Source of the DNA: Rhodoluna sp.
GTDB taxonomy: Bacteria > Actinomycetota > Actinomycetes > Actinomycetales > Microbacteriaceae
Direction of reading: 5' to 3'
Assembly (NCBI GenBank): GCA_024641095.1
Contig: JAHEDR010000002.1
Coordinates: 1-64,000 of the forward strand
DNA length: 64,000 bases
Position 1 is the stretch's first letter. The number at the start of each line of letters is the position of its first letter. Below, piece after piece: positions 36,081-37,691 of this stretch. A program made the translations under genes and the position numbers. The notes below the pieces were generated by a model. That model did not search any database. It was given only the letters and a program-made list of their open reading frames with translations, and was not told the origin of the DNA.

Positions 36081-36611
36081 CTAAACCTTCTCGATGGTGA
36101 TTGATTCGATTACAACGTCGTCGAATGGCTTGTCGCGACCATCGGTGTCAACGCCTTCAATCTTGTCAACAACCTTCTTTGAAACCTCGTCAGCAACTTC
36201 ACCAAAGATGGTGTGCTTGCCGAACAACCAACCGGTTGCAGCGGTTGTGATGAAGAACTGTGAACCGTTGGTGCCAGGACCAGCGTTGGCCATTGCAAGC
36301 TTGTAAGGGTCGTTGAAGTTAAGTTCTGGGTGAATCTCGTCGCCGAACTGGTAGCCAGGGCCGCCCATTCCGGTGCCGGTTGGGTCGCCACCCTGAATCA
36401 TGAACTGCTGAATGATGCGGTGGAAGATCACGCCGTTGTACAGCGGCTTGCCGGTCTGAGTTGCGCCGGTACGAGGGTCTTTCCACTCGATTGAACCAGT
36501 TGCTAGACCTTCGAAGTTTTCTACAGTCTTAGGGGCGTGGTTGCCGAAAAGGTTGATTTTGATTGCGCCGTGGTTTGTGTGCAGGGTCGCTACTGAAGTG
36601 TGCTGAGTCAT
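36081..36611 (-). CDS. ppiA: Cyclophilin-type peptidyl-prolyl cis-trans isomerase
   Basis: A 176-aa cytoplasmic single-domain cyclophilin. It has the active-site FHRIIQQFMIQGGDPTGTG near residues 68-86, NAGPGTNGSQFFIT near 115 and GKHTIFGEV near 137. The start at 36611 gives MTQHTSVATL. The longer frame to 36653 would overlap the divergent gene. Only 15 bp separate its ATG from that of the divergent methyltransferase, with GACAAT 7 nt upstream as a -10 candidate. Confidence 0.93.
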   Translation of the reverse strand: MTQHTSVATLHTNHGAIKINLFGNHAPKTVENFEGLATGSIEWKDPRTGATQTGKPLYNGVIFHRIIQQFMIQGGDPTGTGMGGPGYQFGDEIHPELNFNDPYKLAMANAGPGTNGSQFFITTAATGWLFGKHTIFGEVADEVSKKVVDKIEGVDTDGRDKPFDDVVIESITIEKV

Positions 36612-36614
36612 GGT

Positions 36615-36620
36615 TACTAT
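36615..36620 (+). promoter_or_regulatory. Predicted -10 element in a 15-bp divergent gap
   Basis: TACTAT 6 nt before the plus-strand ATG at 36627. GACAAT (36619-36624, minus strand) is 7 nt before the cyclophilin ATG at 36611. The two -10 elements overlap by two bases. Confidence 0.6.
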
Positions 36621-36626
36621 TGTCGC

Positions 36627-37691
36627 ATGAGTGAATTGCCAGCACAGGGCCAAATGCCCGGCCGAATTGTCGGCCAGATGCTCGTCTCGGCTGACCGCGA
36701 ACGATTTATTGAAATAGACACCGATAAGGTCTCCCGCGGCTCCTTCTACACAACCGATGAAGCCTGGCTAAACGCCCCAATCAGGGGCTTTATGAATCAC
36801 GCGCTGCTGAGTAGTTCATCGGTGTTGGACCCCTTTGCCGGCGACGGCCACTTGTTGGAGCTTGTGCGTAGGGAGTTTGGCGCCGCCATCTTTGGCCTAG
36901 ACATTGCCGGGGCCAAGTGGGCTCGCAACGATTCGCTGGTGAACATTCCCAACCCGGGTCGTGCGGTGATTGTGACCAACCCGCCTTACCTGGCCAATCA
37001 CTCAGCCAGACGCAAGGGAGTAGCTGCGCTGGTTGACACCTACTTTGATGGCAGCGATTACGACAACCTTTATAAGATCGCTCTGGATCGTTGCCTGGCC
37101 GTGGCCGACTTTGTCGTGGCAGTAATTCCAGAGACGTTTTTGCTTTCAAGTTTTGATAAGTCACGTTTGCAAGTGGTCTCGGTAATTGAAGGTGATTTAT
37201 TTAGCGACACCGAGGCACCGGCCGTGGTTGCCTGTTTTGGTCCCGCTAGTGAAAGAACCGATGCGCGAGTTTTTGTTGGCGATAAACCAATCGGCGCACT
37301 GAGCGATATTCTTGAACTGCGCCGTGGCAGATCACGCGCTGGAATTCAAATTGTCTTTAATGATCCAAATGGTCGCATTGGTTTGCGAGCGGTTGATGCG
37401 CAAGATGTACGTCGCCGAATTGAATTCATTGTTGGTGACTTTGAGTACAAACGTTCCAAGGTAAAAGAGTCGTCAAGGCTCATGACCTATTTAGATATTC
37501 CGGAACTTACCCAAGATGAATTACAAAATGTTGTGGCTCATGCAAATAAGTTGCTTGCAGAGCTAAGAGAGAAATCTTGTGATTTAGTTTTGGCTCCGTT
37601 TAAAGGAAACGACAAGAGCGGTAACCGCAGGCGCCGACTGGACTACGCACTTGCGCGGCAAATAATTAACGACGCTTGTTTGGCCAGATAG
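36627..37691 (+). CDS. Solitary N6-adenine DNA methyltransferase-like protein (NPPY)
   Basis: A 354-aa SAM-dependent methyltransferase. Motif I is VLDPFAGDGHLLE near residues 64-76, and motif IV is VTNPPYLAN near 112-120, which in this family binds a flipped adenine. An N-terminal SFYTTDEAW segment resembles type IIS/IIG modification subunits. The C-terminal half is basic (KGNDKSGNRRRRLDYALA) and may recognise DNA. No restriction partner is nearby. It could instead be an RNA or protein methylase. Start as for a leaderless mRNA. Confidence 0.75.
   Translation: MSELPAQGQMPGRIVGQMLVSADRERFIEIDTDKVSRGSFYTTDEAWLNAPIRGFMNHALLSSSSVLDPFAGDGHLLELVRREFGAAIFGLDIAGAKWARNDSLVNIPNPGRAVIVTNPPYLANHSARRKGVAALVDTYFDGSDYDNLYKIALDRCLAVADFVVAVIPETFLLSSFDKSRLQVVSVIEGDLFSDTEAPAVVACFGPASERTDARVFVGDKPIGALSDILELRRGRSRAGIQIVFNDPNGRIGLRAVDAQDVRRRIEFIVGDFEYKRSKVKESSRLMTYLDIPELTQDELQNVVAHANKLLAELREKSCDLVLAPFKGNDKSGNRRRRLDYALARQIINDACLAR

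Follow-up and report, generated by a model that had tools for sequence, protein, structure and literature searches.

How can two divergent genes be expressed when only 15 bp separate their start codons? In the 64-kb stretch of Rhodoluna sp. DNA analyzed here (the window; the host genome comprises 1.2 Mb in 11 contigs), a gene encoding a cyclophilin-type peptidyl-prolyl isomerase (36081..36611, minus strand; PF00160, E 3.9e-42) and a gene encoding a DNA N6-adenine methyltransferase-like protein (36627..37691, plus strand) face away from each other across such a spacer. The methyltransferase gene contains DPFAGDG and NPPY motifs, identified by eye, and matches phrog_18657 "DNA methyltransferase" with E 2.1e-24. 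It has no Pfam match at E 0.001; the match to Eco57I (E 0.009) is weaker than the Pfam cut-off.

Signals in the Spacer

The ATG of the cyclophilin gene occupies positions 36611-36609 and that of the methyltransferase gene positions 36627-36629. The spacer between them, read directly, is GGTTACTATTGTCGC (36612..36626). The hexamer TACTAT (36615..36620, plus strand) is located 6 nt before the methyltransferase ATG, and GACAAT (36619..36624, read on the minus strand from 36624 to 36619) is located 7 nt before the cyclophilin ATG. The two hexamers have positions 36619-36620 in common (AT, its own complement). A preliminary description of this site had given the same start codons, hexamers, distances, and two-base overlap, and proved to be correct base for base. 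It had also noted the absence of a ribosome site, and indeed, inspection by eye finds none of GGAG, GAGG, and AGGA in the 15 bp on either strand.

What had been missed is an additional element of the cyclophilin promoter. GACAAT is preceded by TGC (36625..36627, minus strand), that is, by the TGn of an extended -10. The TG covers the last base of the spacer and the first of the methyltransferase ATG, so that the T of TGn pairs with the A of this start codon. Such an overlap is consistent with a spacer of 15 bp (G, n, the hexamer, and 7 nt) and with the CATG found where the spacer meets the methyltransferase gene. On the methyltransferase side there is no extended -10, as the TG at 36611-36612 is two bases, not one, away from TACTAT.

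The arrangement is unlikely to have arisen by chance. The pattern CAT-N15-ATG occurs at four places in the window, and -10-like hexamers (TANNNT or NANAAT, 6-7 nt before both ATGs) are present at one of them, the studied site. In 200 dinucleotide shuffles, the mean number of CAT-N15-ATG places was 15, with 0.03 carrying both hexamers, and at least one double-hexamer place was seen in 6/200 shuffles. This evidence against chance is modest when taken alone, and the conservation described below is stronger.

Leaderless Genes in the Same Genome

To see the spacer in the context of its genome, we considered 264 kb of the same contig (G000 contig C1), comprised of the window and ten 20-kb stretches, in which a simple gene caller relying on codon usage alone, and hence blind to promoters, identified 244 genes. 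The gap between the end of TANNNT and the called start is 6 nt in 48 genes and 7 nt in 11, together 59, and every other gap from 0 to 33 is represented by 0-7 genes. This peak indicates that leaderless genes are ordinary in this genome. As an SD-like word is present 4-20 nt before the start of 70/244 called genes, leadered genes probably exist here, too.

In actinobacterial leaderless genes, the first T of TANNNT has been reported ∼12 bp upstream of the start codon (PMC3160421, PMC3898074), and leaderless genes constitute on average 19% of genes in the surveyed actinobacteria (PMC3160421). The first T of the methyltransferase TANNNT, at 36615, is 12 bp before the ATG at 36627. The cyclophilin hexamer starts 13 bp before its ATG and has the sequence GACAAT, which is not TANNNT. 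This hexamer, and the sharing of one site by two genes, distinguish the studied pair from the typical actinobacterial leaderless genes as presented in the available parts of these papers. The 59 leaderless-type promoters favor TAGNCT, unlike TATAAT, with C in 76% and A in 10% at position 5 of the hexamer, and both TACTAT and GACAAT deviate from this consensus.

The preliminary description had placed a -35 element inside each opposite gene, a claim that we could not uphold. The best TTGACA-like matches at a spacing of 16-19 bp agree in 3/6 bases on the methyltransferase side and in 2/6 on the cyclophilin side. Moreover, base frequencies upstream of the 59 leaderless-type promoters reveal no -35 signal; the best TTGACA match among them is 1, 2, 3, 4, and 6 of 6 in 4, 23, 19, 12, and 1 cases, respectively. 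For leaderless genes of Mycobacterium tuberculosis, the available text of PMC3160421 and PMC3898074 reports that no -35 motif was found.

Divergent pairs with signals on both sides are not restricted to the studied site. Given the called starts, the 264 kb contain 41 divergent pairs, in which TANNNT at gap 6-7 is present on 33/82 sides and on both sides in 8/41 pairs, compared with 2-3/82 sides and 0/41 pairs for four control gap pairs. When other in-frame starts were allowed, TANNNT was found on both sides in 12/41 pairs, and in 16/41 if NANAAT was counted, while seven control gap pairs yielded 0-1. With windows of four gaps and other starts allowed, the counts were 14 and, with NANAAT, 18 pairs versus 0-2 in the controls. 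Since these counts exceed those at control gaps, double-leaderless divergent pairs appear to be common in these 264 kb. The studied pair is among the 16 and absent from both the 8 and the 12, for two reasons: the caller starts the methyltransferase gene at Met18, and GACAAT does not conform to TANNNT. Its 15-bp spacer is the smallest in these divergent pairs, followed by 17, 22, and 23 bp; the latter three pairs likewise need a start other than the called one.

Conservation of the Cyclophilin Signal

In the genus, 58 cyclophilin places in 57 genomes yielded 56 loci, the second place of G031 and of G451 being omitted because it lies at a contig end and has no start. For G023, contig C101 (L007) was used, as its piece in C30 lacks the start. 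TGn-NANAAT is located 6-7 nt before the cyclophilin ATG in all 56 loci (gap 6 in 41, gap 7 in 15), and the position of the start directly behind the promoter is conserved in relatives. Outside the genus, the best 27 loci of 113 matching genomes were considered for the other genera of the family; 25 of them have the strict pattern, and the remaining two have near versions. From the order beyond the family (23 genomes), 5 loci were considered, and 3/5 carry the signal. Hence, the cyclophilin gene seems to have a conserved leaderless promoter of the extended -10 type. Extended -10 promoters with TGN before the -10 are described in the available part of PMC3898074, and the cyclophilin side matches them by its invariable TGn; unlike them, it has a hexamer of the form NANAAT and a TG that extends into the opposite start codon.

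The Interleaved Arrangement in Relatives

By contrast to the cyclophilin signal, the methyltransferase side is, judging by its distribution, lineage-specific. The methyltransferase was matched in 14/67 genomes of the genus, one match being weak and partial, and in a sample of the family it was found in 6/398, only within this genus.

In 10/56 loci of the genus, an open divergent frame begins with an ATG at a distance of exactly 15 bp from that of the cyclophilin gene. Seven of these contain the methyltransferase (genomes G000, G030, G010, and G006; G003, G024, and G343), and three contain a different protein of 92-104 aa beginning with MAKK (G007, G028, and G452). TACTAT is found 6 nt before the divergent ATG in 10/10 interleaved loci and in 0/46 others; for any TANNNT at that place, the numbers are 10/10 versus 2/46 (Fisher p 1.9e-9 with kinship ignored, which overstates the evidence, as the ten loci form three kin groups). 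The overlapping -10 elements are kept in every locus with the 15-bp arrangement.

The 15-bp spacer itself is identical in four loci, 13/15 alike in three more, and 11/15 alike in L017, which belongs to the third kin group. Between the group of the window and G003, G024, and G343, where the spacer agrees in 13/15 positions, the cyclophilin genes agree in 20, 26, and 26 of 55 four-fold third positions. For L017, 39/62 four-fold sites agree, so that the 11/15 seen in the spacer is no clear excess.

We also considered the gain of one base in the cyclophilin discriminator as a part of interleaving. Gap 7 occurs in 10/10 interleaved loci and in 5/46 others; yet it is also common outside the genus (14/25 family loci with the strict pattern), and such a gain is not demonstrated by these counts.

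A Probable Bidirectional Leaderless Promoter and Its Alternatives

Taken together, these observations lead us to think, with a probability of about 0.85, that the 15 bp act as a bidirectional promoter, yielding two leaderless mRNAs and serving one polymerase at a time. The polymerase with, presumably, the main sigma factor would recognize either TACTAT, directed to the right, or the extended -10 TGC-GACAAT, directed to the left. Each -10 would set the first transcribed base at the A of its own ATG or one base before it: the predicted start is 36627 (plus strand) for the methyltransferase mRNA, and 36611 or the preceding base, 36612 (minus strand), for the cyclophilin mRNA. Each mRNA would then be translated from its 5′ end with no ribosome-binding site. 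As the -10 elements share two bases, a single polymerase is expected at the site. The preliminary description had likewise proposed that a minimal bidirectional promoter gives rise to both mRNAs as leaderless ones; the genome-wide -10 spacing and the conservation of both signals support this proposal, in which the 5′ ends are predicted ones. Weighing against it are the start called at Met18, the non-consensus sequences of TACTAT and GACAAT, the lack of a -35, the reduction of the interleaved loci to three kin groups, and the lack of a clear excess of spacer conservation in L017.

Some of the same facts could be explained if only the cyclophilin promoter were real, and the methyltransferase were translated from Met18 (36678) of an mRNA begun elsewhere, with TACTAT as a by-product. 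The codon-usage caller indeed chose 36678 rather than 36627, the methionine of the motif MLVS is retained at the place of Met18 in 12/12 of the compared genes from relatives and the window, and TACTAT is atypical of the -10 hexamers in this genome. However, TACTAT is seen in none of the 46 loci where no ATG frame is open 15 bp away, and we rejected it as a by-product of the cyclophilin promoter. Besides, in all 12 loci with the methyltransferase as the first divergent gene, the frame R..G.MLVS runs back beyond the methionine to a start with a leaderless-type signal (TACTAT in seven loci and TGGCASACT in five, including the GTG start of G023, read by eye). We consider this explanation improbable. 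Even less credible is a scheme in which both genes start inside one another, with ordinary leaders and overlapping antisense RNAs. The SD-like words of the 70 called genes make leaders conceivable in this genome, but no such word precedes either ATG, and both signals hold their distance to the ATGs across the loci that have them.

The proposed bidirectional promoter resembles those described, in the accessible parts of PMC12825309 and PMC10268837, as having shared -10 elements: the -10s overlap on opposite strands, the polymerase binds in two ways, and some of these promoters are located between divergent genes, as here. They have been defined by divergent starts 7-25 bp apart (PMC10268837), with a preferred start-to-start distance of 18 bp, and also 10 and 23 bp (PMC12825309). 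The predicted distance of 15-16 bp falls within this range and off the preferred values. We rejected the published 18-bp register as a fit for this site given this distance; in that register, which is a preference and not a requirement, -7 and -11 coincide, while here the last two bases of the hexamers pair instead. Unlike the bidirectional promoters in these accounts, the studied one is predicted to produce both RNAs without leaders.

In E. coli bidirectional promoters, opposing polymerases cannot occupy the site together (PMC12825309, available part), in agreement with the earlier suggestion that polymerase would bind here only one way at a time. It does not follow that one gene represses the other: the five E. 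coli bidirectional promoters tested in that study had basal activity too low for real competition, and for this reason we regard regulation by exclusion at the studied site as only possible.

A divergent leaderless pair is known from M. tuberculosis, where both mRNAs of prpD (Rv1130) and Rv1129c have been mapped to the start codons, and closely juxtaposed divergent promoters have been called common (PMC3898074, available part). The present pair would be of the same kind, the RNAs having been mapped there and being predicted from sequence here. Thus bidirectional promoters, leaderless genes, and a divergent double-leaderless pair are all known already, and nothing known is overturned by our finding. 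What is new is the tight, conserved register and a comparative series in which the promoters of relatives are separate, abutting, or interleaved; among the listed titles and abstract openings of open-licence literature, we found no description of an interleaved double-leaderless promoter. The locus is an unusually tight example, kept by several relatives, and illustrates how compact a bacterial promoter can be, with two predicted leaderless mRNAs from 15 bp and with promoter, discriminator, and start codon sharing bases.

Other Arrangements and the Origin of Interleaving

In five further loci, the methyltransferase is the first divergent gene at a larger distance, with spacers of 43, 43, 45, and 48 bp, and of 30 bp from a GTG. 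All five have TGGCAGACT or TGGCACACT exactly 6 nt before the start. The same TGGCASACT-type signal precedes the MAKK gene in L016 (42 bp) and, in L053 (40 bp), an open frame, 305 codons or longer, which by eye resembles a membrane transporter. At the 30-bp spacing, the extended -10 elements of the two genes are directly adjacent, and their TGs are merged in one CATG. Due to these loci, separate, abutting, and interleaved promoters can be recognized in one neighborhood with different divergent genes. As the three versions involve otherwise similar genes, the cost or gain of the overlap in expression and noise would be measurable. The slot beside the cyclophilin gene seems, from these comparisons, to exchange genes and to keep the promoter.

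In total, TGGCASACT-N6-start was observed upstream of the cyclophilin gene in L014, L016, L049, L050, L053, L054, and L007, and the genes behind it vary (methyltransferase, MAKK small protein, or a frame that is transporter-like by eye). In L016 (G009), the methyltransferase gene directly follows the MAKK small gene, as if in one operon; judged by eye, it apparently starts there at the methionine of MLVS, which is preceded by an SD-like AGGCGAG.

To trace the interleaved state, a cyclophilin tree was constructed with 46 rows, of which 41 represent those of the 56 loci with at least 150 residues and 5 come from other genera. On this tree, the interleaved state needs four changes, well-supported branches force at least two, and 0% of 200 bootstrap trees give a single change. 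The methyltransferase tree (13 rows) requires two changes, and the AU test does not reject a single clade of the interleaved genes (p 0.275). A repeated origin of the interleaved state is plausible from these trees, but only plausible, as support for several branches is weak and genes may have been exchanged.

Two accounts of the origin may be considered. Interleaving might be an accident that happened once, was retained by descent in a few lineages, and has no role other than compactness; this would concern its origin and use and is compatible with the bidirectional promoter mechanism. The single clade allowed by the methyltransferase tree and the three kin groups of interleaved loci agree with this account, while the four changes on the cyclophilin tree, and the occurrence of the 15-bp version with two different genes, speak against it, and we hold it at slightly less than even odds. 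A more tentative account, which we are inclined to doubt somewhat, is that the fusion of two originally separate leaderless promoters has repeatedly produced a 15-bp unit beside the cyclophilin gene, with the old cyclophilin extended -10 staying in place and the divergent gene swapping TGGCASACT for TACTAT. The TGGCASACT promoter, separate at 40-48 bp and abutting at 30 bp, would then have been given up, and TACTAT would have been cut into the cyclophilin discriminator. If such mergers occurred, the start codon of one gene doubles as a part of the extended -10 of the other, and the expression of both genes is tied, whatever gene fills the slot.

A second tight divergent pair was observed in G000 contig C1 at 171089/171107 (in the joined coordinates of the window and L109-L118). 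Its spacer is 17 bp, and its starts are GTG, which is not the called start, and ATG. The hexamers TAGACT and TAGTCT overlap by five bases, and the predicted starts are 18 bp apart, as in the register favored by the published bidirectional promoters.
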